The notes under the pieces are model-generated. The model saw only the letters and a program-made list of their open reading frames with translations. It ran no database searches and was not told where the DNA came from. Of a stretch of 64,000 nt of DNA, positions 1,441-64,000 are shown piece after piece (position 1 is the stretch's first letter; every line of letters starts with the position of its first letter). The position numbers were made by a program, and so were the translations under genes. The stretch is from contig JAQGEQ010000045.1 in NCBI GenBank assembly GCA_034620365.1, positions 744,001-808,000 on the forward strand, given 5' to 3'. Origin of the DNA: Pegea sp. RAD2-039 (taxonomy: Eukaryota; Chordata; Thaliacea; Salpida; Salpidae).

Positions 1441-4400
1441 ATGAACGTAACACTTTTGCATGAAAAAGAAAAGAAATTGAATGAAGCTCCAAAAATATCT
1501 TTGTGTTCGACCAACTTTTGCATTTCAAAAGGAAAAAATATTATATTATATGGATCTTACAGACAAAAAGATAAAACGGTAAATAAATATTTTAATTTTT
1601 GTTATCTTTTTCTAATTATTCTTTTTTAGGAAATAACTTTGATTGGACACCAAAGCGAAGTTACTACTTTGAAATTTGTGACAATTAATAAAGAATTAAA
1701 TTTGTTGAGTGCTGCATCAGATTATTTGATTTCATGGGATGTAGAAGAAGTTTCAGTGGCAGACAGTAATGGTAAAAAAATTCAACTAAAATATTCCAAC
1801 CAAAAAAATATTAAGAATTATGATTTTGAAAAAATTAAAAAAAAAATTGAATTTAAATTGAAACCAGGTGATAAAGTAAGAGGTCATGTAATTGGACGAT
1901 GCTTCATTACACCTCATTGTATTTGCATATTTGGAAAGATAGTTTGCTTAACTTCATCAGATCTTTTAGTAATTTATGATCTGGATCAAAAAAAGGTTTA
2001 AAAAATTAGATCGAAAAATGTATAAAAATTTCAAAATTTTCAGATTTTGATGGAAATTAAATCATCAAATATTTCAGCTACTGAATTTTTAAATGAAAGT
2101 ATTTTACTCACTTCCACTTTTAATGGTTCAATTTTAATCAGAGATCTAAATAATGGAGGCCAAATTATTTCCAAATTTATTCCTTCTGTACTTGGAGTTG
2201 GTAATTTTTTGAAATCTATTTTAGAACATTATTTAAATTTTTCTCATTTTTAGGAGCAAATTTTTTGAGTTCTTCAATTTTCATGGATCACTTTGCGGTT
2301 GGTTCTTCTTCATCTCTGGTTAGATTTCCTTTTTTTTTATTAAAAATGAAATTATTTTGTTAATTTTCAGATTTATGAGTTTCATTTTGATCAAGAGAAA
2401 TTATCAATTAAAGAAAATTTTCATTTTGATTTAAATCAAATTTTATTCCATATTCAGTATTCAAATAAAACTGCTCGTAAGTTAACATCACACAAAGAGC
2501 ATACCTAATTCCCGTTTCCATAGCAATAAACGAAGTTTCTCAAGAGCAACAAGTCTTAGCAACAATTTACACAAATCAACAGTTTCCAGGAAACACGTAA
2601 AATCATTTCTATTTTCATTCATAAAAATTTGACGAAGATCTTTTTTAGAATCTTCAATTCGCGCCGTTTGTTGCTATTAGCAACCGAGCAAGCAATTTAT
2701 GCTATCGATGTAGACAGCCATGACGTCACAGCTCATTTGTTTACTACTGATGACGTCACACCATTCATCAACGATGCAATCTTCTATCGCGACGATGACG
2801 ACTCGAAGGTATGACGTCATCTCACAGTTATTATCACGACTAATATAAACAGTATTTAGGTGATGTGTATGACGTCATCAACTTTTGGGAACAATATTCA
2901 AATTTATTCAATCGATATTTCTGATGACGTCACATTCGATATTTCAACAATTTCATTTTCATCAAGGTTATCGAGGAGTTATTTTCCTTTAACTTGTTTT
3001 CAATCTAATCTTTCAGTGATCCGCTTGTCTCTTCATCTCCTCTTTGGAAAAAAATTGAAAAAGTAAAAAAAAAACCGGAAAAAAAACTAGAAAAAAATTT
3101 GACATTTCAAAAAAAAATTCAAAGTTCCGGTTATACGTCATCACCTAGGTAAGAAGTCACGTGGTTAGATGTCACGTGGTAAGAAGTCACGTGGTTAGAT
3201 GTCATATGAATTCAAGTTGATTGGTTTTCAGAATGGGAATGTTTAAACCAAAAACAAACTTCAAAAAACCCAAAAATCGGACTTCAAAACTGCAAAGCTC
3301 TGATTTGATGAAAATTGAAAAGAGAGTTTGTGATTGGTCCAATTTTGAAGCTTCTGATTATATTTCATTAAACAGAAAAAGTGAAAAAGTGACTTCTATC
3401 AAATGTAAGAAGTTTTCTTCATCATTTCATCTTAATCTTCAAATATTTGTTTTTTGATTCTCAAATTTATCTAAACATCTAATCTTTATTCCCTAAATTT
3501 ATCATCTAATCATCATCATCTGATTTTTATCATCTGATCTTCATCATCTAATCTTCATCATCTAATCTTCATCATCTAATCTTCATCATCTAATCTTCAT
3601 CATCTAATCTTCATCATCTAATCATCATCATCATCTGATCTTCATCATCTGATTTTTATCATCTGATCTTCATCATCTAATCTTCATCATCTAATCTTCA
3701 TCATCTAATCATCATCATCATCCGATCTTCATCATCTGATCTTTATCATCTGATCTTCATCATCTGATCTTCATCATCTGATCTTCATCATTTGATCTTC
3801 ATCATTTGATCTTTATCATCTGATCTTCATCATCTGATCTTCATCATCTAATTTTCATCATATGATCTTCATCTTCTGATCTTCATCATCTGATCTTCAT
3901 CATCTGATCTTCATCTTTTATCCTCTTCAGCAACAGAGAAGATGATATCTGTCGGTTTTTCCGACTCCACAGTTTTTATCTCGAATCTTCCTCTCCAACA
4001 AAACTCTTCACCAAAATCTTTCAAATCTCAACGAGTCTTGACTCATCATCAAAAAGAAATTCTTTCATGTGATTGGTCAAACAGCGGAAACTTGTTGATG
4101 ACGTCATCAGCCGATAACACGATCGCGTTGTGGAATCCTTCAAAAAGCTCCGAGCTTCTTCTCGATGTACAAGTGAAAATATTTAAAGTAAGTCCATCGG
4201 ATGTTGATCTTCTCTTGGTGTTGATCTACTGGAAGTTGATCTTCCAAACAGAACCGCGCGATCAACTCAGCTCAATTCTTCTTCGGTGATAGATTTGTGA
4301 TGACGTCACAATCCAACTCTCATCTTCTTTACTCTTATCAGTTACATGAAGGTCCAAAAGATGACGTTAAAAGGTGACGTCATCAAACAATCGCGTTTTC

Positions 4401-5148
4401 GCTTCGATAATATTTTCATTTAGATATTTAAACGTTGGAACTTCAAAACTGATTGGTAATTGGTCAATGGAGGAAGCTCAGGCGATCACGTGTTCAACAG
4501 CAGCCAATCACGTTAATTCATGTTAGTGTTAACACCATCACGTGATTTATAAATCGATGATGACGTCATATAGATGTTATGATGCGAGCAAGCTCTCAAA
4601 AAGTTGTTGAAGTCTTTGACATGAATCATTGTAAGGTAGTTCGAAGATGGGAACAAGTTCATCAGAAACCACCTCATATAATTCGACTTGATGACGCAAG
4701 TGATGTGTTTGTGACGTCATCACAAGGCGATGGCATCAAACTTTGGGATTTGAGGATTAAAAAGTCCGTTGCTAAGTGATAACGCGTTTCAAAACTTTCA
4801 TCTTTTTTTCTGAAGATGCCTTCATAAATTTCATCATCATTCTTGCGTCAGTAAGTGTGACGTCATTATCAGCGATTGCCTTCGATATTTGTCGAGTGGA
4901 ACGGATGATAAAAATGTTGTTTTGTGTTCTAAACTGGATTTTTTTGATTTTGTCTTTTTTGCAGATTTGTCTTTATGATTTACGACAAAATCTGCCCCTA
5001 AAAATGTTGACAACAAAAAACAAAACGACCAAATTGTGCCAATCGATTCAGGTAAGATATCTGATGAATTTTTTATGATTTAAAGAAGATTTTGTTGTTT
5101 CAGATGTATGCTGGTGATAATTTGGGAGGAGTAGAAATTTTTTGTTAA
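1441..5148 (+). CDS. WDR27: WD40 repeat protein, WDR27-like (17 exons)
   Basis: Exons: 1441-1578, 1630-1995, 2044-2200, 2254-2318, 2371-2476, 2524-2596, 2649-2808, 2860-2966, 3017-3148, 3232-3404, 3931-4187, 4342-4373, 4424-4521, 4574-4775, 4816-4915, 4965-5051, 5104-5148. Phases agree throughout and give about 765 aa. WD repeats are visible as GHQSEVTTLKFV with SASDYLISWDV (N-terminal), HHQKEILSCDWSNSG with TSSADNTIALWN (middle), and VTSSQGDGIKLWDLR followed by GTDDKNICLYDLRQN (C-terminal). The order and wording of the first and last repeats resemble vertebrate WDR27 as I remember it, and the length is close to that family (about 830 aa). The protein is presumably a beta-propeller scaffold of uncertain function. 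The start is the first in-frame ATG. Most introns are 40-55 nt; the 10th is swollen by a minisatellite. Another WD40 family cannot be excluded. Confidence 0.7.
3149..3204 (+). repeat. 30-bp tandem duplication that copies a splice donor
   Basis: Bases 3149-3178 are repeated at 3179-3204. Both copies begin GTAAGAAGTCACGTGG, so the duplication copied the 5' splice site of the 9th intron. Use of the second donor would put TAA straight after the exon 9 reading frame, so the first donor must be used for the full-length protein. Confidence 0.85.
3501..3918 (+). repeat. 15-bp minisatellite in intron 10 of the WDR27-like gene
   Basis: About 28 units of roughly TCATCATCTAATCTT, with TAATC/TGATC and CTTC/TTTT variants and occasional 3-bp insertions. 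It fills an intron (3405-3930) that would otherwise be near the local norm of 50 nt. Confidence 0.95.
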
Positions 5149-14300: not shown

Positions 14301-15677
14301 AAACGCAAAATGAAATGTGTAAATACATAATTTATCTCACTTATTTCAAATATGATAAAAATGGCTTTAAATATCTTATTTTTTGATAATATATATTATT
14401 GTTATCGTAACAAGCTTTTATGATATAAATATATACGAAATTCGCCAAAATACTTGTTTCAAAAACTAAATATGTTTTTAAATAGTGATTACTACTCAGA
14501 TATTATATTTTAAAGTTATGTAACTTTTTCCACTCTAAAACTTTCAGTTATAATGTATTAATAATTTTTCAGTATTTAAGTAAACCAAAAGATGCAGATA
14601 AGTCTTTATTTTACTGAATGCTGAATATATAACTTTTCTGCTTGGTTGGATAACGTGCAAATTTGTACGTTGAAATGATAACACTGAACAAGATTATGAA
14701 GCTTAATTAACAACCTTGATAATTTATTAAATTCAAATATTGTTGTTTTAATCTGATTTTTTCATAAAAATATGAAAACTTTTCTATGGATATAAAAAAT
14801 AAATAATTTAGCCAAAGTAAAAGTTTGAATTTCTAATAATTATCACTTTAAATTATTTGAATAATAATTTATGAATTTTTAATATTTTATATGGAAAGTA
14901 TTTTGATGAAAGTTTTGTAGAAAGCTCGAAATAAATGTTTGTGTTGAAAATGTTTTGTAATTTCTATGGCAATAACCTTGTAATTAAATTGTTATTGAAG
15001 TAAATATTTAACTAATATTGAGAGCTACTTTTATTGATTTAAATTCTTTTAAACACCTTCATATAATTTAAGACTGAAATATGTTGCTCTTGTCTATTAA
15101 ATTGCTTACACAACAAAACAACTGACTTGTCTCATTTTAAAAACAACAGCTTAATATAGAGATATTTACTAATTTATTGTAGTTCTGAATATCTTTGTGT
15201 TTTTGTAATAGTTTGTTTTTTTCCACCTTTTTTGTTTATATTGTTATCATATCTGTAATATTTACTTTCATTATTTGAACTCTATAGTCTTTTATGACAT
15301 TAGAAAATATTTTAAAAACAAATTCTTTTAAACTAGTTGTATTTATTTTCATGAAATTTCATTTTGAAACTTTTAAAGAAATTTTTTTATAAATAATTTT
15401 TTAAAATAAATAACTACATTTTGTTGGTGTCTCTGGTATTACTTAATATGAATTTATGAAATTTAGTGAAATTATTGAAGGGTTTTATTTGTTAATGTTA
15501 TGTTTAAAAACTTACATAATTTACTTTGACTAACATTCAAATATTGAAACTATCTCTTGTATTTTATTATAAAACTTTTTGTCTGTTGACTTTGTAACCA
15601 ATCTAATAACTTCACCTTTTTTTATTTCTAGGAATTGTTTTTCAAATTATGATTATTTTTGATTGAATTAGTTTAAA
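11304..15677. other. AT-rich intergenic region with possible coding relics
   Basis: Upstream of the kinesin gene and of FAN1; both promoters must lie here, but no distinct element is seen. Most is AT-rich repeat-poor sequence. Fragments of open frame occur at about 12177-12376, 12447-12806 and 13121-13250 (separate entry for the second). Confidence 0.5.
12447..12806 (+). pseudogene. Possible coding relic, family unknown
   Basis: One plus-strand frame reads RCPDKAKIRSLATKEYNEYI onward with a single TAG at codon 28 and a TGA at about codon 76; an adjacent stretch includes DWWRLWHN. Codon content is protein-like compared with the surroundings (Arg, Cys, Pro, Trp). An upstream piece at about 12330 reads YICNKCVYKT, suggestive of a zinc-binding Cys pair. 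A decayed transposon or zinc-finger gene is possible; I do not recognise the family. Confidence 0.25.
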
Positions 15678-18032
15678 ATGATCTCACTAATTTCAAACAT
15701 TCAAAGTAAAAGCATAGAGCTGAGAAAAACAACCCCACAAATGGAGAACGCATTAAAAAGACGATTTCGTTTTTTAAAGTCAGCTTCAATCTCTCAATTT
15801 AATGAAGATGATGAAAACTTCCATCCAAAAAGGAAGATAAGGAAGTGTTCGAAACCAAAAAGCTTGAAAGAGAGTGACAATCTAAATGTGCCCCATAAGC
15901 CAAGTGACCCAGATTCTTCAAAACTTGAAATTGAATGTATTAGCTTTGAAGATTTTAGTGAATTGGTTTCAAGTGAAGATAACTCATCTAAAAACACATT
16001 ACTTGAAGACTCATTAAGTAAACAGACTATAAAAAAAGAAGATAATTTAGAAATCTTTAAACAACCTTCTGTTGAAATAGTTGATGATAATGATGTTGAT
16101 TTTTACTTGAATAATTTTAAAATAATAATTGAAACAATTAAAAGTAACCAGCTTGATTGGAAACTATTTGATGGATATGATGCAGAGTGTATTAACAAGT
16201 TTCAGACACTGAGTACATCTTGTCAGCAATTGTATATTCGCCTATACTTAAGAAAGCATATTTGGTTGCTTGTTGATAAAATCAAATATCCTTATATATC
16301 AGATGATTTATCTCCCTTTTTGGAAACTTTGTACCAAAATGGTTTCTTAGATTGTAGTGTATGTGATAGAAGTGATGGATTATCAATTCCTGAAATTCTG
16401 GATATTTTGCCATTAGCAAAAGCGAAAATTTTCAGCAAATACTTAAATATAAAATATACTTCAAAACCTCAGTTAATCAGGTTTGTTTTGAATCTTTGTA
16501 AAAATAAGAACAATGCATTTTTCATCAACAAAAAGAACAACATTGTAGATAAAATAAAAGGCAAGTTAAATAATCTTCTTGATAAATGTTATAAGATCAG
16601 TATTGAACCAAAGAAGGTCTTTGGTAGATGTATGCTTGTGTTTGATGTTTCCAGAGGTATAGAGCCTGAGGGTAATTACTCTTCAAATTCAAGAGGACCT
16701 AATCAACTATCTAGTATGATACTTGCTGGTATGCGGAAAGTGAAATATCCTACTTATAAAGTAAATGTAACTCGGCCATTATTTCAAAGTAGAAATGAGT
16801 TGTTGGGTTATGAAAAGGCTTGTAATATTTTACTGAAGGTTCAAGAAGAGTTTGATAATTCAAGATATAGTCATGCTCTGAGTTTGTGTAAAAGTAGTGA
16901 AGAGTTTAGTTCAACAATTGATCGTACAACTATCAAGTCCCACAAGCAACTACCTAGGTTTATGCAGCGATATACATCTAGTTATATTTGTAGGAAGATC
17001 AAATCGTTGAAGTTTGAATCACTACAGAAGCTAAAGAAGTATGAGGCTGCTTGTGAAGTTCTATCAGAACTTTTGGCTGATAATATGAGTTCATCAAAAA
17101 GAGGTTGCTGGTATGAAAGATTGTCTTTAAACTTGGAACATCATTTAAAAGATCCTATAAAAGCTATAAAAGTCATTGGAAATGCTTTAAAAGATAAATC
17201 TTTGCACTCAGCACACTATCTATCATTAAATGAACGTTTAGATAGATTAAGAACTGTGAATAAAAAATGTTCAACAGTTTTAATTGACGGTAAGCAAGAG
17301 ACTGTTCGTCAGGCTTCTGTTATAAATATATCCGGGAGGTATTTACCAAAACGCTTTCAAACTTCAAAAGCCAGATTCATGAAGACAATCGAATCAAGTG
17401 AAGATGTAATTCTGTGCTCTGTTGAAGAACTGGCTTTAGATCATTATAAGGAAGAGGGTTTTAGCAAAGGTAGGCATGGTGAGTCATCAACATTTTTCTC
17501 ATTGTATACCCTGTTGATGTGGGATATCATATTTGATTCTGTTGTACCTGACGTATTTAGAAATAATTTACAATCATCTCCTTTAGATTTTTTGACTAAA
17601 GACTTTTATCTTTATCGGAAATCTGCAATTGACAATCGTTTAGAAGATATCAGATGTTGGGTTAGCAAAAGATTTGATTGCAATAAACATATTAGGAAAG
17701 TTTGGAGTGACAACTTGAATTCTTCTTGTAGTTTTATGAACTGGGAACTGTTCAACTCATCAGAAGAAGTAATTGAGTTGGCGTTATGTATTGGTGGTGG
17801 TATTCTCGCAAAAATTTTTAAGAGGATTTCGTTAGATCCAGGAGGAAATAAAAGTGGAATGCCAGATCTTGTAGTTTGGAATGTCGCTGATAAAAGATTT
17901 AAAATTGTTGAAGTCAAAGGACCTGGAGATAAGTTATTTGCAAAACAAAAAGTTTGGATTCATTATTTACTGTCTGTTGGTGTAAATGTTGAACTGTGTA
18001 ATGTAATCGCTTCCGCCTCTAGAAAATTGTGA
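15678..18032 (+). CDS. FAN1: Fanconi-associated nuclease FAN1, intronless
   Basis: One open frame of 784 codons. FAN1 is a structure-specific 5' flap endo/exonuclease in interstrand crosslink repair. The C-terminus is a clear VRR-NUC nuclease: HGESSTFFSLYTLLMWDIIF (Glu602), GMPDLVVW (Asp730), and IVEVKGPGDKL (Glu745, Lys747) supply the expected E-D-ExK catalytic set. The middle (about 420-540) is helical, matching the TPR-like region, and about 225-290 (SIPEILDILPLAKAKIFSKY) matches the SAP-like DNA-binding region. The first 130 residues are low complexity. The N-terminal UBZ zinc finger, which in vertebrates binds ubiquitinated FANCD2, is not visible. ATG 15741 (M22) is an alternative start. 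Length is shorter than human FAN1 (about 1017 aa), mostly at the N-terminus. Its neighbours have 17-27 exons, so the lack of introns suggests retroposition. Confidence 0.93.
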   Translation: MISLISNIQSKSIELRKTTPQMENALKRRFRFLKSASISQFNEDDENFHPKRKIRKCSKPKSLKESDNLNVPHKPSDPDSSKLEIECISFEDFSELVSSEDNSSKNTLLEDSLSKQTIKKEDNLEIFKQPSVEIVDDNDVDFYLNNFKIIIETIKSNQLDWKLFDGYDAECINKFQTLSTSCQQLYIRLYLRKHIWLLVDKIKYPYISDDLSPFLETLYQNGFLDCSVCDRSDGLSIPEILDILPLAKAKIFSKYLNIKYTSKPQLIRFVLNLCKNKNNAFFINKKNNIVDKIKGKLNNLLDKCYKISIEPKKVFGRCMLVFDVSRGIEPEGNYSSNSRGPNQLSSMILAGMRKVKYPTYKVNVTRPLFQSRNELLGYEKACNILLKVQEEFDNSRYSHALSLCKSSEEFSSTIDRTTIKSHKQLPRFMQRYTSSYICRKIKSLKFESLQKLKKYEAACEVLSELLADNMSSSKRGCWYERLSLNLEHHLKDPIKAIKVIGNALKDKSLHSAHYLSLNERLDRLRTVNKKCSTVLIDGKQETVRQASVINISGRYLPKRFQTSKARFMKTIESSEDVILCSVEELALDHYKEEGFSKGRHGESSTFFSLYTLLMWDIIFDSVVPDVFRNNLQSSPLDFLTKDFYLYRKSAIDNRLEDIRCWVSKRFDCNKHIRKVWSDNLNSSCSFMNWELFNSSEEVIELALCIGGGILAKIFKRISLDPGGNKSGMPDLVVWNVADKRFKIVEVKGPGDKLFAKQKVWIHYLLSVGVNVELCNVIASASRKL

Positions 18033-30059: not shown

Positions 30060-33000
30060 TCAGATGTTTAGTTCATGAGTTGAATCAAATGAGTCGGAAG
30101 CTGGAAGATCGGCTCTTCTTTCCTGGTCGGAGCTGATGTAGATGCTCGAATCATTTGAACTACTAACTGATGTAGACGCTTCAGTTCCTCTCCATCCGCT
30201 GCTGGAAGCTACCACTTGAGGGCAGTGTCGGGAGTAGGATGGAGGTGGAGACTGGTGATGTAGACAAGAAGATGAAACTGTGGGCGGAGATGGAACTTCG
30301 ACAACAGGATGCATGAAAGGGGTAGTAGTTGATGTTCGACCTCGTCTAGCGTGACGTGCACAACAATCACATGAAGCACCATGTGAGGTACTTCTCGACG
30401 AGGTTTCCACGACAACGCTTTCGTAAGGAGGTAACTCAGCGTCATCAGCAGCAGCAAGTAGACGAGTTGAGAGCTCCGCATTCACCCCAGATCCTCGAGG
30501 GTCCCCTGCATCCGCATAATACACTTGCTTCTGGTTTTTGTGACGTCGATGTTGTCGATGATGACGTGGTTGCATCGATGACGTCATCACGTTATCATAT
30601 CGTGATCTGGTTGGCTGAGAGAGCGACGATTGTTGCTGAGATGATCTTCGGGAGTGATGACGATCACAATGAGGATGAGCACGGATGTAGCTGTTGTGAT
30701 GACAACCAGCAGATGAGGAAGAACCCCCTCCAGTGGTTGAAGCATGTTCTCGACTCATATAACGCGCGACTTCTTCAGATTCAGGGCAATCAGCAGTATC
30801 AGTGATGGAGTGATGACGTTGATGATGTAGAGACTCACAAACACATGTCCCGTCCACTGACCCGTGAGTTTCGACCAGATGACTTGGTAGCAATCGACTT
30901 GTCTCGTATCGATTATCGATTTGGGAACTTTCTTCGATGGCTTCATCATCATCAATTTCGATGGTCCTCAACCGGAGTGGTTGTGAAGTGGTCCGGAAGT
31001 TAGTTGTGGTCGGGATGACATGATGGTTGGACACTGGTACTGATGACCGTTCACAACTGACCACAGTTGATAGATTGAGGGACACACGCTGGGCTACAGA
31101 TACATTAAGAGCTGAAAAGTCTCCTGGTTCCTCCACTACAACTACATCAGATCTTCGCGTGCTCTTTGCAGCATCACGTGATCGCTTTTCCATTCTCGAA
31201 GTATTTTTATCAGCTGATGACGTAAGAGTTGCAGCAGCAGAAATCATCTCAGATCTTTTCTTCAAATGAGACATCTCACATTCTTCAGCTCCTCTAGCAT
31301 CCGGATCATGATCACAATTAGTGAAAGACTTCTCGTCATCGCGAACAGAAGATCTGGATGAGGAGTCACGAGTCCCGCCGCGATACAAATCTCCTTGACG
31401 ACGCCGCATGTTCATCTTGACAACGCCAACGATGAAGAAGATGCAGCAGATGATCGCGACCATGATGCAGATCAGTGGGATGTAGTACTGGGAGTCATCT
31501 GCGCGATCAAAGCGGTTGAAGCGATCTTATCTTTACATTTTTAACTCACCACTAGATGGAGTAGCGTCATGTGAGCTGAGGATCATATCTTTGTATGACG
31601 TCATCACGCACGCGGAGGCTTTCTTGGCGGTGAGATCAGCTGGATTAGTGGTGTTGCTCGACTGTGAGATGATGAAGATAAGATTGAGAGCACTGTAGGG
31701 GGCGTGGGGCACTTACAAAAGTGATGGTGATACGTTGAGGCTTCAAATGATGTTTGCTGCATCTGATGAAGAGGGAGTTTGTGAGAGCAAACTCCTCCAA
31801 GCAACTGATGTTGCGAATCTCAGCACAGATGTCCTCCAAATAGCGTCCCTAGATGATTGATTAAAATTAGAAAAAGTCTGAAGAAGACGGAAGTTGATCT
31901 TACAGGTGAAAGTTCATCAGACTCAAATCGTAGTGAGATCTGATGACAGTTTCGAGAAGGGATCGTGAGAGAGTTTGGGACACATTTCAGAACAGACTCC
32001 GGGAGGTAGAGACTCCCTCCAGTAGGAAAACGATCATCAGGATGAAGACACACGCTCCGTTTAAGACAAGGAGGAGAATAGCAGTGAGGGAGGCTTCTGC
32101 CCACGCACATCAGGTCACGTGGACACGAGATCGAGTCCTTGGGAGTGAGGCAGATCCGTGGACCACACCAGAACTTGGTACAGGTCAGTGTCCCGGATAA
32201 GCATCGACATTTGTTACAAACTTCGTTCCATTCGTCTCCATCATTATAAATCCTCCCATCAGTTTTAGAGTAACAGGAAGTTAGAGGAGTGATGACTGTT
32301 TAAAGACACAGATTAGATGCTGAAGACACACTCCAGGTTGATCTCACCTTTCTCACATCTCTTCCCACTTCTTCTCGGAGGACATTTGCAGCGATAGTCA
32401 TTGATACCATCGATACAGATACTTCCAAAGGCGCAAGGTTCTGACAGACATTCGTTGATATCTGAAAATGATGAAGAGATGAAGATGATGAAGAGAAAGA
32501 TCACAGGTTTGTTTGTAGAAGAGATTTTTGTGAGTTGATTCACAAACGAGTAAGTTTTGACCTTTACATTTAACTAAACACAATCGAATGAAGTTGGATT
32601 GTGGATTAGATAAGTTGGAAAAGGTTGTCGACTAATTGAATGGTAATTAGTGGAATGGAAAGTTTTGTTGGAAGCTGAATTGGAAGGTAAACTTACTTAT
32701 ACGGCAATCAGGCCCGGCGAATCCGGGTAGACAGTCACATGTGTAGTGATTGACGCCATCAACACATCTGCCTCGATTGTAACTGTAGCAGTAAGAAATA
32801 ATTAGATTTGATGATGGCAAGTTTGTTTGAACTTACCAAGGGTAAGGGTTACAGTCGTCCAAGTCTGAAAAGTTCACAATCAGTTATTTGGTGGTAAAAA
32901 AGAAGTGAAATATGAGAAGATTTTTGGAGAAATCAAAGAGGTTTGCGGCAAGCACAACTTACTTTGTTCACAAGTAGAACCTGAGAAGCCTTCACGACAG

Positions 33001-36000
33001 TAGCAACTGAAACTGCTTCCTTCATCGATGCAAGTACCTCCATTGTTACATGGATTCGAAGTACATGGAGGGACTTTCCCTGAAAAGGTTATCAAGCTTA
33101 CTGTTCAAAGTTCAAGAAATTTGTTCAGAAAAAAGTTGACTAATAGGACTTACTTTGTGAGCAAAATGGACCAGTCCAACCATCTTTACATTCACAGTGG
33201 TTGATGTTGGGACCTCGAACACATGTGCCAAAGTTCTCACATGGTCGATCATTACAATGATGAGTTCCTAGAAGAAGAAGAATTTGAAGATGAGGGAAAT
33301 CCCGGTTGGTAGTTTGTGAAATTGTTGTAGAAATCCAATAATTACTTGAAAGTAGTCTGCTACTTTCTACTTATAATTGAAATGTCTCAACTAGTTCAAT
33401 GTAAACAAAAAAAGTGAAGCATTAAACGAGTTGCTAAATATAGAAGAAAGTTGGTGAATGAGAAAAGACAATTTGATTTTTCATAAAACTACAGAAATAT
33501 GGACCGACCAGTTGCTTGTGGACCGACCAGGTTTCTTATCTTTATTTTAAACATACAAATCGAGCGAAAAAAGATAAATTGTTGAAAAGTTGAGCAAGCA
33601 AATTCATATATGGAAGTTGTCTTAAAAACTAGAGATGTGGGAACAACTTCACATTTCTTTCTCTCACCAAAAAATCTCATTTTTTTTACTTGATAATTAG
33701 AAGAAGCAGGTGTAAGACTTCTGTGATAAGTACATAAAAGTCTCTCCCTTGATTATTAAATATCAAGTTTCATATGTTGACTGACATCGAATAAATCTAA
33801 TTAACGGAAGCAACATAAAAATTAAGATAATTTAATTAATACAAATAAATTTCTTTATCAAATTTGAATTGATGTAAGTGAGATGATGTCTTGAATAAAC
33901 GAAAGTGAATCAAAAAGAACAATATTTTAAAAACACCTGCATAAACACATGCACATCTCGTGCAACACACACACACCTCAAACTGTTTGGATTTAGAAAC
34001 TTGTTTATATGCAAGATGACAGAATCTTGTTGATAGTGTAGAAGTTATGTTGATTAAAATGTAGTTGAATCAGTAAAACTAGTTGTAAGCAGAAGTTGTC
34101 ACATGAACAAATGTAAATATCTAAAGTATCTTCAAATAGTAGAGGTGTAATTAAGAATTGTAGTAGAAAGATGGAAGATAAGAATATTTGAATAAGATGT
34201 GATTTGTATTTAGACAGCTAACTGATAATGACGACGTTTTTGTTTCCTTTGTTTCGATTATTTAATACTTACGTTCAGAACATAAAACTCCTTGAAAACC
34301 ATCTTGGCATATACAAGTGTACTGGTTAACACCATCAATGCAAGTTGCTCCATTCATACATGCAGCTTTCTCGCAGTCATTGATGTCTACAAGATTTGAT
34401 AGAAATATAAACCAACAAACTTTTTCAATAAAAAATGATTAAAAATCGAAATCTTTAAAAGAGAATGATGAATAATTGATAATAGAAGTTAACATCCAGA
34501 CACTTGTAATGATTTGTTGTTTATTGAGGATATTAACAAGATTATTACATAATTTTTATCATTAATAAATTAATTTTGAAAAGCATTTCAACAAATCATA
34601 AATAAATTGATTTCAAAGTTAGAAAAAGGAAATTGATTTAACTAACTTGTTTCACAGTGGTCTCCGCTGTAACCACTTTCACATAAACAACTGTACATGT
34701 GGATATCAGCTGGATGCTTTACACAAGTCCCATGTGCCCCGCATATAGTGGACAGTTGAACTTCATAACCACTTGAAGTTTTATTAGAAGGTACTCGTGT
34801 CCGGCAGCTATCTATCACTACAAGTGAATAAATTAAGAAATGTAGATTGAAAGATGTCTGAAACTTACTTTCGCAGTTTGAAAGACTTCCTTTACATTCA
34901 TTCTTTAATTCAGAACAATTTTTTCCAACATATCTATCAGAACAGTTACAGTAATAATCACTGTTCAAATTGAAGCATAGTGCTCCGTTTTCACAAGGAT
35001 TTGGTTCACAGTAACCCTGATTCAGCTGCTTTTAAAAGATAAAAAAGCAATTATACAAACGGAGATATGAAAGTATTTGATATGAACGTGATGAAACATA
35101 TTTGCAAGTATCTTTTGGTTTGTAAATATTAAAACGTTTTTCGGGGCTTCTAAATCACACAGTAATGATTGGAGAGCGGTATGTTTTAGCGACTAGCGAC
35201 GAAAGGTTTTAATCTCTCTTATCAAATGCTAACTTCTAAACGCAAACAAGATTTTACGCAAGCCGTCGGTTTGATTGGTTAGAAAATCATGTGATAATTT
35301 GATTGGTTGCTGCTACTTCGAGAAAAATAATTTATAAAAAGTTCTATCAGTGGTTTGGTGATATGAAAGCTTTGATAGAAGGCTGGTTGATGTGATTAAA
35401 TGGTCAATATTGTTTTATTTCTTTTATTAATGATTAAGTAAAAAATTTCAAACTTTACAATAAAAGCATTTATCAATCAAATATTTAAATGATTTGTTAA
35501 TAAAAGTTTTCAAATATTTTCAAAAGTGAGTTAACATCAGTTATATAAGAGAAGTTATTATGCGTAAAGTGATTCGTTCAATCTCATTCAAGTGGAAGAA
35601 TTGATATGAAAAGACATCAAGCATCTTAATAAAGACACATTTATCATTGAAGCATAATTCAAACTGAATTGTTGCTTCCACTACCAACCCGTGACTTAAG
35701 TTTTTAATTATCTCATTACAGTAATAAGCACTTGTCGTTGTTAATTACAAGCTATAGGTAATTAAAAGAATGGTCATGGTCCATATTAGTGGCCAAAAGT
35801 GGTCAGTGTCCAGGTATAAAGTCAGTGAAGCAGTAAATACTGGAATAAGTCTAGTCATCACTGTGGGTGGATGTCGCTTGTAAGGATGTGAACTTAAAGA
35901 GCAACAAACGTGGCTCACTAGTAAGCAGTGAAGCGCATAAAGGACAATTTTCTAGTAATGACGGCTCATATAGGCTATTAAATATTTCATTACTTACCTC

Positions 36001-39000
36001 ACAATGTTTTCCTGAATATCCAGGAGGACATATACAGTGATAATATCCAACTTTATCAATACATTGACCACCGTGCATACAAGGTTCATTGAGACAGTCG
36101 TTGATGTTGATACTACAACGTTTACCGGAATATCCTTTCGGACAAATACAGTGGAAGTCATCCAGCATGTCCTACAAGCAAATGATCAAGATTTGAAGTC
36201 TTTAAAGATCTTCCTACCTGGCAAACTCCGCCGTGATAACAAACATCTTCTGCTGCACAATCATCAATGTCTATAAATTGAAGATGATCAGAAGATGAAA
36301 TTGAGATTTTTTTGATTACTAACCGATATCACAATTTTTTCCTGTCCATCCTGCTTCACAAGGACACTTATAATTGCCGAAAAGATTGACGCAATCTGTA
36401 GCATGGACACAAGGACTATCTTTACACTCATTTGCATCTAGAAGAAATTAGAAGAATGACGTTTAGCTTGTCACATATGTTCGGAAGCAATTATTTATCA
36501 ATTTGAAGCAATCATGGAAATATTTGTTGAAAAATTCAACAGATGATTAAGTTGAATGGAATTCTAGAGAAGAGTTAATCTTCTGAAATGACGAGATGAA
36601 TAATAAGACAAGACAATGAGTGTATCTCCTCTAGTCATCATAAACAAGTAATTATCACCAACTTTAATTATATACAAATCGTAACAGCGATGACGTCATC
36701 TGATAAAATGCGGACCAGTACCTAGCTGGCAGTGGTTGCCTTCCCAATGAGGTGGACAGTCACACGTGAAGCCATTGAGTAGGTCGGTGCAAGTGCCATT
36801 GTTTGAACACGGTTTTTTTGCGCAATCGTCATAATCTAGAAAAACAAACAAATAACAATCGATGGAAATCGTGTGAATCGCGCCCCGCACACGATGACGT
36901 CATATTCGCGCGAATGAGTAGTAGCTGACCACATAAGAGCGAACTCTTGAGAGCTTTTTGCGACTGAAGAGGTTTTAAGTGAAAAGAAAAAAACTCGTTG
37001 ATGATGATTTGGTTGAAGAAGTTGAAACTTGGGAAGATTTGTGATCTTATAGTTGAGATCTTTCGCTTTTCGCATTAAATTTCCATTCGAGCAAAAAAAT
37101 TGGTGAATACAGATGAAGGTGGTAAAAGATACTTTTAATCTAATTAAGAAATCGCGCTGATGACGCGGCTTTATCAACCTTTTTTTTAGCTTGTGGTTAA
37201 AAGTATCTCTTAGTTGAGATGTGTAGCTTTTGAGGCTACTTTTTTGTGGATCATTAGGGTGAGTCTTTATTTACTCAATCTAGTAACAAAACACCGAGGC
37301 AGACGACCTTTTGATGCAGATGGTATGCATTTAAGATGAGTAAGTCTTCAAGATACTTTCAAAGTAATTCTTTTCAAAACCAAAAACCACTCAAAATAAT
37401 AAATATAAAAAAGTGTTCTTGTGATTTGGAAGATTAAATTGAAATCGGTTGATCACTTACAATAGTAATCAAAAGATTAAATGATTGAACAGATCGCTAA
37501 CATGGTTTTATTGATTCATCTGAGAGATAACCTTGAAGATCTCTAATGATTTTCTAAGCGGATTTTGGAGCTTGATTTTGAGCCGCATTTACTAAATTTT
37601 TATTTTATTAATTTACTTCTGGGTAGCGAAAGTATGAGGGAAAGATTTGATCTTAAGATGCTTGTGGGAACCTGTATGAATTGGTGTGCAATTAAGAAAG
37701 AAAAAAGATGAGAGGTTCTGTGAAAAAATTTCGCTAATTTAAGAGTAAAAGCACACGAATATTTGAAAATAAAAAGCGTTTGTGGGAATCAAAAAAAGAA
37801 AAGAGATATTGAAGACTAGAAGATGAAGTAATGATAGGTTGGTGGATGTAATAGAGATAAGTTTCACTTGAAATCATTTGAAGCTATTTGCGACAAAAGG
37901 TTTTCTCATCAGAAGACTTATGTGAAGGTGATAACTTCAAATGAAAAGTTATTTAATTATTAAAATGAGAATTCAGTTAATCGAAAGTTGATTTTTCTAC
38001 AACTAAACGACAAACTAAATAAATAATCATAATTTTATTCTTTTCTTCTTCTTGTTTAAATTGTTGAATCTATTATGAAAAAGATTCTGTAAATTTGATG
38101 ATTGAAACTGAACTAGCAGCATAAACATGTTAAAAGCTCGATAAGACCGGAACCTTTGAAGGACCCTCAACTTATTGCTACTACTTGTACAACCACGAAT
38201 CACTAAATAACGTGTGAAAATGTGAAAGAGCTACAACATTAAGTGATCTCAAAATAAATAGAAAGTTAACAACAATTACAACATCAAATACTTCCTGATG
38301 TTATTATCAACAAACAAAACTGAACTATTTGTAAACAGGCGCTGTGGTTAGGTGCAAGCCTCAACTATCTACACAGAAGATGCTAATTATCGCGAGCGAG
38401 CGAGCGTGACGTCATCACGAAGAATAAAAATAGCGTCGATATAATAAGGCCCATTAAGCAGCCGATACAAGGACAAGATTTGAAATATGGAATAGAAGAA
38501 GAACAAACCAATTTCACACTGGAGTCCACTCCAACCAGGAAGGCAATTGCAGTAGAAGTCACGAACTTTGCTATTGTGACATGTTCCTCCATTTTTACAA
38601 GGATTTGAGATGCAAGCATATTCAGCTGATGAAGAAGATGAAGATGAAGTCTTGTGATACATCCTGATCCACTTACCTGTCTCACAACGTTCTCCAGTGT
38701 ATCCTTCAGGACAGTCACAACGGTAAGTATCTGGGTCAGGGTTACTACAAACGCCCCCGTTTAGACATGGATGGTATGTCCCACAGTAATCAAGATCTGT
38801 TGATGATAATCAATGAAGATCTTAGTAAGATCAGATTTGTAACTCACTTAGATTACATCTCAAACCGCCCCAATTCTTGTCACAATTACAATCCAAAGCA
38901 TCTTTACAAGTGCCATGTTCACATTTGGGGTAAGGGACACATTCGTTACAAAGATCACCTTGCCATCCATATTCACATCTGTAATTGCAAAGATTGATTA

Positions 39001-54446: not shown

Positions 54447-56981
54447 ATGATTAATATTTATAAGAAAGATGATAACAAGAAGCCGACTAAACTTCTTGAA
54501 AAGAGACATGGACATAACTATGACTCTATGGAGGCTGATATGTTGAAGAGAAAGGGGTATTTTATAAACAGTCTGCTCGGGGAAGGAACTTACAGCAAAG
54601 TGAAGGTATTTTTTGCAATTTATTTCTAATTTTGATGATAATCTTAAAAATTTTAATAATTGCTTTAAATTATTAGATTTAAAATACTTCACATTCAGAA
54701 AGCGCGATGTCGCGCGTAATAAAGCATTTATTTTAATGTTACCGTGTTCTCTTCTTAAATAATTTCAACTTTAATCATATTCTGTATATGTTTATGGATT
54801 TCTCTGAACTGATAACGATTGGGCGACTAATCATTATATTCTGCAAAGTCATAATTTTCAATAACTTACAGAACCTGTCATAAGCTTGCTTCAAATTATT
54901 TTATGTTTTCTTCCCACGATGTATTCGTAACTGATAACGTCATCATTAAATATTTAAATGAAATAGATGTTTATAAAAAAATTGATTTTTTCAATCAGTT
55001 TATAAACTTTTAAAGTTAAATTGTTCATAACAATTTTTTTATGTATATAGCTGTTACATCTTGAAACTTTATAACTTAAGTAAAGAAAAAATGTTATTGC
55101 AGTATTCTTAAAACTTTCTGCTTTTAATCTGATATCAAAATTATTTTCATAACAGTAGATAACATGACAAATAGAGTCACATCAACATAAATGTAGCTAC
55201 TTTTAAAGTTTAATTAATTTCAAAAGTTTGAATGTCTTTGAATAGGTTTTGTAAAATTGGTTTCCTATATTGTGTTAAACTCAGCTAAGTCAGATTTTAT
55301 CAAAAACTTTTTAAGTGATCTTCAATTTATAATAGGTTAAGTTGAAAGCTTTTACAAAATCTGAGAAAATTTCAAAAAAATTTTTAACATTTTATTGAAA
55401 ATTATCTAAACAAATTCAATTATGCAAACTTAAGATCGAAGATTTGATACAATCATATAAGAAGCATCTATAAAACTTGAAAACGATTCAATTTTATCTA
55501 ATATATTTTCTTACAATACTTTATTTTCCGTTTTAATCATACAAAGTCAGAAATATTGGGATTTGTTTATTAAAATAATTTGATAAATTCATTTTATTGC
55601 ATTTGAAACTTCACGTAATACATCATCTAACACAGCGAGCAAATTCAACATCACTACAACAGCAAGTCGCCATCAAAATAATATCACGTGACAGCGCGCC
55701 TAGACCTTTTAGAGAGCGATTCTTGCCTAGAGAAATCAAGATTCTATCTCAAGTTCATCACCCAAATATCGTTCATGTTTACGAGATCTTCGAAACGCGA
55801 ATACCGAAGCGTGTTTACATAGTAACCGAAATAATGGGGTGCGGTGACTTATTAGAACTAATTAAGGTAATTTGTTGTTTATTATTTACATCTAATTGCT
55901 GATTGGTTCGTTTCAACTAATAGGAGAATGGCCCTTTGCAAGAAAATTACGCCCGCGTTGTCATAAGCGATGTTTGTAAAGCTCTGTGCTATCTCCATAA
56001 CCGACAAATCGTGCATCGCGACATAAAATGTGAAAATATTCTTCTTAATCGAGTCACTTCAACAAAAACAAACAAACCAACTGAGCCAGGAGTTTTGCTT
56101 CGCGCAAAAATCTGTGACTTTGGCTTCGCGCGTCACTTTGAACACGATAGAGATGACACGCAGGTTGGTAGATCTCTGTTTGGTTGAAACACCAGCAATT
56201 AGTTGCTCATTGGTTAGTATTAGCTGGTGTTTAGAAACAGCGGAAACAGAATATAATAATTATGAGAGCGTAATAGAAGGTCTTCAGGAAGTGAGTTGAA
56301 GGAAGAGCTAGATAGTAATTACTAAAATAACAGTTCAACTTCTATTCTGTGTCCTAAAACTCTTCCTAAACCTTCAATTTCAATGACTACAATTTCACAA
56401 ACTCCATGACGTCATCGTCTCGTTGACAGGACACAAGATTCTTGACGAATACTTTCTGTGGATCTGCTGCCTACGCCTCCCCAGAAATCCTCGAACGAAG
56501 GACCTATGACGCGATGCTTGCTGACGTATGGGCGCTAGGCATTGTGGTCTTCATCACCTTATATGGATCGATGCCTTTTGATGACTCTGATATCAAGTAA
56601 GCGCTCGCTTTATTTTAGTGATGAACTACTGGAAGTGGTGACGTCATCATGTAGTGGTGACGTCACCAGTTTCGCTGTTCAAATAATTGAGGTAAAAACG
56701 TTGAAAATATCAACTTGTTGATGTAAGTCCTCATTAACAAAATCAACATCAATTTGATTGTCACGTGACTAACTGATGCTTGTTGATTGGTCAGGGCGAT
56801 GGTTGTGGAACAGAAAAAGGCGAATGTTATCGAAGATCGCGCGGGTCGTGTAAGCGCTTCTGCAAAGATTTTTTTGACCAGAGCACTTCAACCAAACCCA
56901 GTGAAGCGTTGCAAAATCGTCGATTTGTTACATCATCGATGGCTGATGCAATCAGTCGCGAGTAAAATCGTGACGAAATAA
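54447..56981 (+). CDS. TSSK: Testis-specific-type serine/threonine kinase (TSSK family, 5 exons)
   Basis: Exons: 54447-54605, 55636-55866, 55924-56163, 56430-56596, 56795-56981; about 327 aa. A compact protein kinase with almost nothing outside the domain, as in TSSKs. Glycine loop LLGEGTYSKVK (about 41-51), VAIKII with Lys67, ERFLPREIKIL C-helix region (PRE is TSSK-like), catalytic loop HRDIKCEN (Asp163), DFGFARHF (Asp195), activation segment TFCGSAAYASPEIL and GSMPFDDSDIK, both characteristic of TSSK. TSSKs phosphorylate sperm proteins during spermiogenesis; the role here is inferred from family. A stretch of about a dozen extra residues (SFTK-like, NRVTSTKTNKPTEPG) lies between the catalytic loop and DFG. 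Intron 1 is about 1 kb, the rest 57-266 nt. The start is the first ATG of the exon; an upstream exon is not excluded. The TAA stop overlaps an AATAAA. Confidence 0.88.
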
Positions 56982-60195: not shown

Positions 60196-63100
60196 TCATT
60201 TTTCATCACTCTTTGTCACATCGTCAACAGATGAAGAAGAATCGACGTCAAAGCGGACCAGATACCGGAGACAAACCTGGAAATAAAAGCAAATAGTTGG
60301 TGGACAAGTAGAAGATAGACAAGTGGTTGGTGGACAGTGGTTGGTAGACAATAGTTGGTGGACAAGTAGAAGATAGACAAGTGGTTGGTGGACAGTGGTT
60401 GGTGGACAAGTAGAAGGTGGACAGTGGTTGGTAGACAATAGTTGGTGGACTAACCTGGTCAGGACTGTAGACAACATATTCATTATATTTGGACACTGCT
60501 GTCTGTGGGTTGTTATTCAAGCTCTTCTCTCCTAGCGCAATTGCGCCACCTGGTGACAATCAAATATAATGACGTAATAAGTGACGTCATCACTACCTTC
60601 TGGAAGGATTAATTCATAACCAGATTTTGGTACAAATTTTCCGATCATCTTCACCGAGTTGTAAACTTCGTTCTCATTCGCTTTCATCGCGACACCATCG
60701 CGCACCTCCTTCGTTTTCCCCAACGCCACCTATATGATGACGTCACAACTAGAAGCTTCGATAACGTGATATATTCACCTGACACAGCAACATGTAGCGT
60801 TTCTCTAAACCCCACTGCTTACATTCCTGCAAGGCATGAGCCACCATATCAGAGAGGTGAATCCCCTGAAAAGATCGAAACCATCAGTTTCATCCATATA
60901 TGGAAATCAAACGCGCGCGTACCTTCGCGTACTGATCGCAGTTATCCTTGCAGTTGGATTCGATTGGTTGAAGACCTCGATTAAGAGTTGACAACAAACT
61001 GATGATGTTGGTTCCGTACCACAACATTCGATGATTTCCGAAACCCAAACTATTCAGTTCACTTTCTTCATTACTTCTACTGATGCGGTAAATACAATCG
61101 ACTCTGACGTCATCACCGCCCGTGTTGTGGATGCATTGAAGGAGGTATTGTGATTCGATGTTGTTAGGAACCATCGCTTGTACATTACAACCAACTGAAC
61201 GATACACGTAGTCGACCGCGTTCATATCTGCAAGTCGCGAAGAGTAAGACGGTTGCTAGGGAGATGGTTGGGGCGTTTGGGGTACCGTTGATGCGATATT
61301 GAGCCCCAAGAAGAACTTTGTTGGCGAATTCTAACTCGACGAGTCGATTGTTCTGCACCAGTAACCTGGAAAGCGTTTTCGCGTCGTTGATAGGACTGAC
61401 GCGATCAAAGATGCCGCCACGAGGTGGCAGTATTCGATAATACTCGGTGCTCTTCTGTTGAATCTAAAAAACGTGATTTAGCTTCGATGACGTCATCACC
61501 GCTTTTACTCACTTTCTCAAGTGTCTTCTGAAGTTTGATGAGGTCTTGAGGATCGGAAGAGCGAAGATCATCACAGTAGTTCAACAGCGCTCTGGTGATG
61601 ACACATCGACGTGATGACGTCACATACGCGCGATCAACTTACTTGATTTCAGACAGCAGCTCGATACTGGTGTTGAGGCGTTCACAGTCGAGACGTCCGA
61701 AGGGAACTACTTCGGGATCGACGTTGGTGCTTTCACGCATCGCGCGTTTCATACTATCGATGTTGATCTGAAGAAAGTGGGGTTAGTGGGGCGAGTCCAA
61801 GCAGGGGCCGGACATGGGTACCAGGTCAGTGTAGACGTTTTGGACACGTTCGTCTATACACGACTCTACATCAGTGACAAGATCAAAGTCCAGCTCAGAA
61901 ACGATGCGATGACGCTGCGCATCGGCGGGTACGAGATGATATTTGCGCGTTTGTGGTTTGAATCTGAGTGAAAATAATGTAAAAGAGGGCGATGGGGCGT
62001 GGGGGCACCTACCCGTTGACGCTTCGCCATTCATTCGCTGTCTTCAACTTGAAATATTTGGCGAATTCTTTGATGGCGTTAGTGGCAGTGTTGAAAGGGG
62101 AGGTTTGCCAGGTGCCCCGTTCACCAATCACGCCCCATCTCATGAAGAACATGAACAGATCTTTGCCTTTTTGATGGATCACCTAATAGGAGGAAGATGT
62201 TAAAGATGACACTAGAGGGAGCAAGAGCAGAACCTGCATCCTGAAAAAGTTGTAGTGAACTTTATCGCTTGTTTGAACATCGACTGATGTGAGAAAGACG
62301 TCACAATGACGATTCGTCTGCGGATCAACCACTATCTCCCTGCACACAAGTATGACGTCATCACGCGATCACGACACGCATCACTGAACACGCACCCGCC
62401 TTCACGTAACCCTGACAACATGTCGGGACTGATGAGAGCAACTGATTGTTGTTGTTCTCCCTCGTCTTCACGAATCCGTTCGAGAATAGTGATCGCGTCA
62501 TTGTCGCAATCTGGGGCGGGATTCTCCCACTGGAGGGCGGTAGTGAAGAGCTCGTTTCTGGCGCTCGGTTTTCGCTGTAACAAGATCAGGATTAGGATCG
62601 GATGCAGATGATGAAGATCAACAGACTCTTTTTTCAACAGAGATATTCAAAGCTTCTTGTAACTCATTCGACATTCGACCAGAGCCGCCTTCTAACGCGT
62701 AATCGAGCGCTGTCTTCCCAAACTCATCCGCCTGACTCAGAGGCATCACTCCTCCTTGCGTCATCAACAGACTGTGACGTAATGATGAAAAAGTGGCCAC
62801 TAGATGGCGCAAACTCACCGCAAGATGGTGATGTTCTCCCAGTAGCCGTAAGGAAGCGGTTTAGCGGCATGATGAATGACGGTTCGTCCATTGTCGTCAA
62901 GTGATGACAACAACACCGGGGTCTTGTGGGTCAGCAACTTCTTGACCACGTGTTCATCATTCTAAGGGACACATGAGGAGTAGAAGAGATTGAAGAGGAA
63001 GAAGAGGACTCACTTGTTGGACAGCTATCATCAGAGGGGTCTGCTTCCCGATTCCATCAACTTGTGTGTTGATGTCGACGTTGTGGTCGAGGAGTAGATC

Positions 63101-64000
63101 GATGACTTTGTGAGCTCGAAGCTGGATCGCGCGAATTAGCGGGTTAATCAACGAACAGTCAGCTTTGCCGTGGAAGTAATCGCGGACCAGTACAGCGGGT
63201 TCGTCCACGTCACCACCGTAAGCTGATGAACGCTCGTTGTGGATGACGGATAATTTACAATCGAAGTCGAGAACAGGGAACTTGCAGAAGCGGTTGATGA
63301 CGCTACTGCTTCGATCTTGCTCCAGAAACAATCTGACGAATCGAGAAGATTAGAGGAGGAGACTGGGGTTGGGGCGTGAGGGTTACTTGAAGATTTTCAC
63401 AGATTCATCGTCATTGATAATTGAATTCCACATGAGGGCGCTAATCGCGTTTCGACCGTTGAAATCGACGAGCGCGATCATGTTGTGAAAGGTTTGAGGG
63501 TCTCGCTCTACAACAAGAGATGATTAGAAGAAGAAGCGCGCGACGCCGACGAACCCGCGAAGAATTGGATAAGATGAAAGTTTTTGGTGAAAGCAGCATA
63601 ATGAAGCGGTGTGCATCCGTAATCATCTGTCGTGTATGACGTCACACCGCGATCAATCAACACGTTGGCCACCTGAGGGCGTAACACAGCGGTTAGTGGT
63701 TGCTTAGCAACGGATGGTTGACGTCATCAACCTTGATTTGAACTTCAGTATGTCTTGGTCGATTGATGCTGAGAATATGAAGAAGATTTTGTTTCAACTC
63801 ATTCTTCTCGCACAGTTTGTTCGAATCGCGTTGCTTCCTTAGCAACGACAATACTACTTGGTAGTTACGCGCTCGCATCGCAGCCTGCAACCAATCACTG
63901 ATGACGTCATCGAAGCGCGAAACGTCGACAAACTAACCTCGACGGCTGCCGCGTATTTAACACCGCAACTTTCTAATCGATCCAACATCACATACGTCAC
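60196..64000 (-). CDS. Ankyrin-WGR-PARP protein, partial (N-terminus outside window)
   Basis: Exons (descending): 64000-63938 (cut), 63884-63732, 63672-63555, 63507-63387, 63332-63014, 62961-62819, 62771-62627, 62574-62411, 62339-62234, 62182-62013, 61963-61822, 61767-61643, 61591-61513, 61463-61286, 61227-60923, 60865-60779, 60729-60597, 60549-60455, 60276-60196; about 908 aa visible. Order: ankyrin repeats (DDYGCTPLHYAAF; LLLDHNVDINTQVDG; DDNGRTVIHHAA; FGKTALDYALEGG), a WGR domain (FFMRWGVIGERGTWQTSPFN), the helical PARP regulatory domain (DSMKRAMRE, VVPFGRL, YYRILPPRGG), then the ADP-ribosyltransferase domain. Poly-ADP-ribosylation would signal DNA damage; ankyrin plus WGR resembles nematode PME-5 and similar invertebrate PARPs. 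Oddities: the usual WHG His is Tyr (LWYGTN, codon 61016-61018) and the GIYFAD Tyr is His (GIHLSD, codon 60857-60859), while the YNEY Glu is kept; the WGR signature is WGV. Activity is therefore uncertain. Confidence 0.9.
60295..60450 (+). repeat. Minisatellite in the last PARP intron
   Basis: A 58-bp higher-order unit (60295-60352, repeated from 60353 with drift) built from smaller GGTTGGTGGACA and AGTAGAAGATAGACA blocks. It fills most of the 178-nt intron. Confidence 0.9.
60541..60557 (-). promoter_or_regulatory. CTCF-like site at a PARP exon edge
   Basis: The minus strand reads TCACCAGGTGGCGCAA, 13 of 14 core positions, spanning a splice acceptor. Confidence 0.35.
61413..61433 (+). promoter_or_regulatory. 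CTCF-like site within a PARP exon
   Basis: CCACGAGGTGGCAG matches 13 of 14 core positions. Coding on the opposite strand (PPRGG). Confidence 0.3.
62794..62812 (+). promoter_or_regulatory. CTCF-like site, near-consensus, in a PARP intron
   Basis: TGGCCACTAGATGGCGCAA matches 18 of 19 positions of YGRCCASYAGRKGGCRSYV. It fills the middle of a 47-nt intron between two ankyrin exons. Confidence 0.45.

Follow-up and report, generated by a model that had tools for sequence, protein, structure and literature searches.

A putative pseudo-ADP-ribosyltransferase of ankyrin-WGR-PARP architecture with a Tyr-His-Glu triad in the salp Pegea sp. RAD2-039

Introduction

Within the PARP family of ADP-ribosyltransferases, an ankyrin-type Clade 1 architecture is known from Caenorhabditis elegans PME-5, a Branchiostoma (lancelet) protein and Dictyostelium ADPRT3, according to passages of PMC4245714, and PME-5 itself is placed outside all clades in the part of PMC2964712 that deals with it. 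The true tankyrases, which have a SAM domain and no WGR domain, are set apart from this architecture in the same part of PMC2964712. Here we describe a gene on the minus strand at the right-hand end of a 64,000 bp stretch of DNA from the salp Pegea sp. RAD2-039 (hereafter the window; assembly GCA_034620365.1, 105.7 Mb; contig JAQGEQ010000045.1, here C14, positions 744001-808000). The encoded protein has an ankyrin-WGR-PARP architecture, carries Tyr and His in exchanged places in the catalytic His-Tyr-Glu (H-Y-E) triad, and has probably lost its nicotinamide adenine dinucleotide (NAD) pocket.

Departures from the H-Y-E triad have precedents among human proteins. PARP9 (Q-Y-T) and PARP13 (Y-Y-V) lack the first His and are listed as inactive in the sections of PMC9189837 devoted to them, which also describe the pocket of PARP13 as closed; the two triads are tabulated in PMC7955679. 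A complex of PARP9 with an E3 ligase modifies ubiquitin, the partner alone being able to do so, as stated in the same sections of PMC9189837. The activity of PARP1 drops substantially when its His is changed to Ala, according to a passage of PMC7955679, and the table of that paper lists TRPT1 as H-H-V, with His at the motif 2 position. In a library of open-access papers we found no report of a Y-H-E PARP, of PARP1 H862Y/Y896H, or of an ankyrin-WGR-PARP protein from a tunicate or Ciona.

Gene structure and domain architecture

The gene extends past the right edge of the window and was modelled to window coordinate 71403 in the adjoining stretch L009, which was joined to the window through an identical overlap of 2000 bases. 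Its C-terminal part was modelled by hand as 12 exons in a single open frame with GT...AG boundaries at all 11 introns between them, in agreement with the initial annotation of this DNA, which had described the frame around the catalytic motifs as open and spliced in phase. The segment 60779-61227, in which that annotation had placed the exchanged residues, covers exactly two exons, 61227-60923 and 60865-60779, that share an open frame. The exon encoding GIHLSD is flanked by introns of 57 and 49 bp, and there is therefore no room for an alternative 87-base exon. An automatic whole-gene model comprised 46 exons and 2375 amino acids and is approximate, especially in its upstream part; by construction it permits no stop codon, so the openness of the upstream exons is uninformative. 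In the C-terminal part the automatic model skipped exon 62339-62234, lengthened the preceding exon and moved the exon ends near 61513, 61463 and 60549, and the hand model was preferred here because homology to PARP1 and PARP2 runs through its exons. The main features, numbered by human PARP1 where residues are compared, are as follows:

60196-64000, minus strand: 3′ part of a large ankyrin-WGR-PARP_reg-PARP gene (hand-modelled exons, GT-AG introns).
62013-62339, minus strand: WGR domain exons (62339-62234 and 62182-62013), motif W-G-V (Pfam PF05406, 53.6 bits; RWGVIG against RWGRVG in PARP2).
61286-61963, minus strand: PARP regulatory (helical) domain, lying within exons 61963-61822, 61767-61643, 61591-61513 and 61463-61286 (Pfam PF02877 at 59.7 bits over C-terminal fragment residues 187-335).
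60196-61463, minus strand: PARP catalytic domain, which starts shortly before exon 61463-61286 ends and runs up to the stop codon (Pfam PF00644 at 84.5 bits over C-terminal fragment residues 354-543; phmmer to PARP1 and PARP2).
60923-61227, minus strand: motif 1 exon, HRMLWYGTN, with Tyr at His862 and Gly863 kept (codons, phmmer, alignment).
61016-61018, minus strand: TAC codon for Tyr at the His862 position (read directly).
60779-60865, minus strand: motif 2 exon, GIHLSDMVAHALQEC, with His at Tyr896, His at Lys903, Ala at Ser904 and Glu at Tyr907 (codons, phmmer, alignment).
60857-60859, minus strand: CAC codon for His at the Tyr896 position (read directly).
60455-60549, minus strand: motif 3 exon, KYNEYVVYSPDQ, with the Glu at the Glu988 position kept (hand model, phmmer, alignment).

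All three Pfam domains were found in the C-terminal 559 residues at scores over their cut-offs, and the modelled N-terminal 1843 residues matched Pfam Ank_2 at 259.6 bits over nine stretches. Judged by these profile matches, the protein is of the ankyrin-type Clade 1 PARP-family architecture. The best PDB-chain matches of the catalytic domain were PARP1 and PARP2, and the nearest rows by path in a 24-row tree that held no tankyrase row were human PARP2 and human PARP1; the branch of the window protein was long and was drawn beside a degenerate paralogue, C47, that is described below. The W-G-R motif of the WGR domain reads W-G-V. In PARP1, Arg591 of this triad contacts Zn1, and the corresponding arginine of PARP2 contacts a second nucleosome, according to passages of PMC8150716.

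Two of the introns hold related repeats. A degenerate repeat of the ACCACTGACCCACA type fills a modelled intron of 672 bases in L009 (about 3952-4623), and one of the CCACCAACCACTGTCCA type lies in the last intron (window 60277-60454).

Exchange of the catalytic His and Tyr

A phmmer search against PDB chains aligned the protein to human PARP1 (E 7.5e-30) and PARP2 (E 3.2e-28) free of gaps in motifs 1 and 2. In motif 1, RMLWYGT stands against RLLWHGS of PARP1 and, in motif 2, KGIHLSDMVAHALQEC against KGIYFADMVSKSANYC, which puts Tyr (TAC, 61018-61016) on His862, His (CAC, 60859-60857) on Tyr896, Glu on Tyr907 and the Glu of KYNEYVVY on Glu988. The same register was obtained from a profile of 23 PARP sequences that excluded the window protein and C47. 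The motif 1 His and the motif 2 Tyr are thus absent and the motif 3 Glu is present. Each of these points had been read from the DNA in the initial annotation, namely the two codons, the Glu kept in YNEY and the altered residue at Tyr907 (ALQEC, in place of the residue after ADMVSKSAN), and its concern that the motifs might be displaced from the true catalytic positions was settled by the two alignments. Because each of the two changes is a single transition, a sequencing or assembly error at both codons might be considered, but it would require two opposite errors and would not account for the further pocket substitutions that these exons carry, and we give it a negligible probability.

When possible replacements are ranked by BLOSUM62 frequencies, Tyr comes first for His and His comes third for Tyr. 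If both residues are lost, the chance of this particular exchange is approximately 0.0074 (0.098 × 0.075). By this estimate from substitution frequencies, the exchange is uncommon as a chance event and requires no special cause, since there is a precedent for Tyr in place of His in PARP13, each change is a single transition and such pairs will turn up when many proteins are scanned.

Loss of the NAD pocket

The exchange was compared with the state of the remaining pocket at 15 NAD-contact positions of PARP1, a list that we take from general knowledge and that was fixed in the script before counting. Six of the 15 (His862, Gly863, Ser864, Tyr896, Ser904 and Glu988) are named in a figure legend of PMC8150716. 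The window protein matches human PARP1 at two of the 15 positions (Gly863 and Glu988; 13%) and at 53 of 195 positions (27%) in the rest of the domain. We used 22 comparators, consisting of six rows of paralogues, the PARP1-like protein C194, human PARP2 and 14 plasmid or phage proteins; the four copies at C249 were entered as one row and C47 was excluded. The plasmid and phage proteins were picked for spread and ease from the records with a match (8 of 24 plasmid and 6 of 15 phage records), leaving out near-duplicates, Vibrio, Tsukamurella, Lactococcus, Pseudomonas amygdali, two further Klebsiella phages and four plasmid records. These comparators, whose catalytic activity is predicted only, had the PARP1 residue at between 6/14 and 15/15 contact positions (43-100%) and at 19-56% of positions elsewhere, and all 22 had H-Y-E. 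The loss in the window protein is specific to the pocket, because several comparators share its level of identity outside the pocket. Asn868 and Lys903 are each kept in 20 of the 22 comparators and are Ser and His, respectively, in the window protein; position 907 is Tyr or Phe in all 22 and is Glu in the window protein; Phe897 is also changed. Tyr907 is the second nicotinamide-stacking residue.

On this comparison of sequences, the product of the gene is probably an intact PARP-family protein of the ankyrin-type Clade 1 kind, whose ADP-ribosyltransferase (ART) domain can still be recognised but whose NAD pocket is lost, that is, a pseudo-ADP-ribosyltransferase: the ART domain scores above its Pfam cut-off and two of the 15 contact positions read as in PARP1. 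A pseudo-enzyme was one of the options raised in the initial annotation, and the change at 13 of the 15 positions argues for it; for another, a change of product type, we found nothing in favour. Several observations weigh on the other side. Positions 864, 878, 880, 889, 898 and 904 also vary among the H-Y-E comparators, Ser904 being Ala in all six paralogue rows. Four positions (862, 863, 896 and 988) are invariant in all 22 comparators, and the two of these that were lost are the exchanged pair. The window protein has retained Glu988 together with its KYNEYVVY motif; in C47 the Glu is lost. Loss of the WGR arginine is uninformative, as three of the H-Y-E paralogue rows (C249a, C257 and C38) are also without it. 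The suggestion that a reciprocal swap is more telling than two separate losses is weakly supported: the invariant positions lost are those of the exchanged pair, but 13 of the 15 pocket positions have changed.

Because Glu988 and the YNEY edge are retained, a pocket that is active or binds a ligand keeps a small probability. In an active one, the motif 1 Tyr would stack on the nicotinamide, the motif 2 His would hold the ribose and Glu988 would be catalytic, making the protein an active Y-H-E transferase or NAD glycohydrolase. The restriction of losses at invariant positions to the exchanged pair would fit such an arrangement, as would the motif 2 His of TRPT1, which in the H-H-V entry of the PMC7955679 table is compatible with an ART active site. 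We nevertheless regard a rearranged working pocket as very unlikely, in view of the changes at position 907, Lys903, Asn868 and Phe897 and of the inactivity listed in PMC9189837 for the PARPs that it describes without the first His (PARP9 and PARP13). Similarly improbable is that Y-H-E is the fixed functional pocket of this lineage of ankyrin-PARPs, with the roles of the side chains exchanged, which would represent a new catalytic configuration outside H-Y-[EDQ], R-S-E and H-H-h. The pocket might instead bind another ligand, such as ADP-ribose, a nucleotide or a peptide, without NAD chemistry, so that the protein would be a reader and not a writer. Conservation of the domain and of the YNEY edge, together with new ionisable residues in the pocket (Glu at 907 and His at 903), is consistent with this, but such changes are equally expected under relaxed constraint and nothing positive speaks for it, and we consider it unlikely.

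A long branch and many changed contact residues could also be the marks of a decaying pseudogene, and the paralogue C47 has likewise lost motif residues. Against decay, the C-terminal exons lie in one frame with GT-AG introns and give an unbroken alignment to PARP1 over residues 86-545, WGR, PARP_reg and PARP all exceed their Pfam cut-offs, and identity outside the pocket (27%) falls inside the 25-34% seen in the H-Y-E paralogues, which makes a pseudogene a highly improbable explanation.

The PARP family in the Pegea genome

We searched the assembly for PARP family members exon by exon and obtained 15 matches, counted as 13 loci: C6, C249 (four tandem copies), C257, C38, C43 (two), C194 (three matches), C11, C1 and C47. 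The window gene was not itself listed by this search, and the count is thus a lower bound. A motif 1 His and a motif 2 Tyr were seen at 12 of these 13 loci, the remaining locus, C47, being a possible second case of the exchanged pair in which motif 2 cannot be aligned. C194 is a PARP1-like gene with introns and intact motifs (LLWHGSRTTN, GIYFADMVSKSANYC and YNEYIVY). An HPF1-like gene is also present, matched at 72.5 and 55.3 bits in two stretches of apparently one 333-codon open frame. The intact-motif PARP1 and the HPF1 gene provide the ordinary route independently of the window gene, which fits the reading of the latter as a pseudo-enzyme. By their motifs, C1 appears to be an ankyrin and tankyrase-like gene and C11 to resemble PARP16. 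A genome search with the C-terminal protein gave high identity at the gene itself only, the other places being at 24-30%.

The odd locus, C47 (L034, C47:45000-49000), is a degenerate single-exon PARP (30.2 bits) in which motif 1 reads LLWYW, motif 2 is shortened and the motif 3 Glu is missing. One alignment of its motif 2 gives Tyr and another His, and the profile omits that stretch; C47 was accordingly set aside as a possible second Y-H protein. The tree joins it to the window protein with support of 89/83, a grouping flagged as a meeting of long branches, and for this reason a common origin of the motif 1 Tyr in the two proteins is not claimed.

The four tandem single-exon copies at C249 (L002-L005, C249:1174086-1188286) lie approximately 4.3 kb apart and differ at 7-14 of 1650 bases in their coding parts; they form an H-Y-E PARP array of recent origin. 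Other PARP2/3-like genes that have H-Y-E and a single exon were seen at L001, L006, L007 and L033 (C6, C257, C38 and C43). In contrast to the intron-bearing PARP1-like gene and the ankyrin-PARP, this intron-less set was possibly expanded by retroposition.

Relatives of the window protein were also sought with PARP alignment patterns in viral_contigs and genome_contigs, and, although the patterns were matched, none was confirmed, which is not evidence of absence, as other collections do contain PARPs of bacteria and phages; the patterns of one viral_contigs scan and one genome_contigs scan also contained ordinary motifs. A degenerate DNA pattern for LW-Tyr-G...GI-His hit at least 120 stretches in viral_contigs, which were taken as chance matches since the pattern is loose.

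Other features of the window

The palindrome TGACGTCA, which is CRE-like (cyclic AMP response element), occurs at 36 sites in the window against 0.78 expected from shuffles, for example in 2721-2932, 4099-4865 and 60582-63909. In the hand model, one of the six sites within 60582-62360 is exonic and the other five are intronic. The 14-base word GCGCCATCTAGTGG was found, with at most two mismatches, at four sites (31549, 59784, 59891 and 62797) against 0.03 expected.

Three other coding regions were noted in the window. On the plus strand, a 786-codon open frame at 15672-18032 has the C-terminal end PDLVVWN...VEVKGPGD, which we take to resemble the nuclease domain of the DNA repair protein FAN1. 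Open frames on the minus strand at about 30060-38809 encode EGF-like repeats and a transmembrane-like segment, presumably resembling a Notch ligand of the Jagged/Serrate type. Exons on the plus strand at about 55924-56981 carry the protein-kinase motifs HRDIKCENILL and DFGFA, and we assume a resemblance to a testis-specific serine kinase. The same contig also carries a weak GH6-like stretch (27.5 bits against a cut-off of 27), and an open frame with a hydrophobic segment just upstream of it may belong to the same gene. Within the animals, tunicates are the group from which GH6 genes are known. A search of the assembly for COX1, aimed at the mitochondrial code, gave no match.

Discussion

A pseudo-ADP-ribosyltransferase of this kind would keep the ART fold and would not bind NAD productively. 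Its function would be non-catalytic, as a scaffold or regulator, in which the ankyrin array may hold partner proteins and the WGR/helical/ART part may act as an interaction or regulatory module. Its role might lie in the response to DNA damage, in which C. elegans PME-5 is reported to take part in passages of PMC2964712 and PMC4245714. The Tyr/His exchange would then account for two of the 13 pocket positions that have been relaxed or repurposed and would not be a designed swap.

Both human PARPs that are listed as inactive, PARP9 and PARP13, are Clade 3 proteins, and the window protein is of the Clade 1 type. If its pocket is lost, the protein, which keeps the WGR-regulatory-catalytic plan of the DNA-repair PARPs, would show scaffold and enzyme functions separated by nature and would allow this to be tested in an invertebrate chordate. 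Were the protein active instead, the accepted triad rule for PARPs would need revision.

Compared with known systems, the window protein is closest in architecture to the ankyrin-type Clade 1 PARPs (PME-5, the Branchiostoma protein and ADPRT3), with which it has N-terminal ankyrin repeats, WGR, PARP_reg and PARP in common; the likeness is one of architecture only, and the Y-H-E triad belongs to the window protein. Tankyrases (Clade 4) have the order ankyrin-SAM-PARP, whereas the window protein has WGR and PARP_reg, with no SAM among its Pfam matches. Human PARP1 and PARP2, its closest solved chains, share with it the WGR-HD-ART core (HD, helical domain) and differ in having H-Y-E, a full NAD pocket, the WGR arginine and no ankyrin repeats. 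PARP13/ZAP resembles it in having Tyr for the motif 1 His, loss of NAD binding being predicted for the window protein, but keeps the motif 2 Tyr, has no Glu, and belongs to Clade 3 with zinc fingers and WWE, as described in parts of PMC9189837 and PMC2964712. The RNA 2′-phosphotransferase TRPT1 likewise has His at the motif 2 position and differs in its motif 1 His, in a hydrophobic residue in place of the Glu and in its membership of another family, PF01885, according to the table of PMC7955679.
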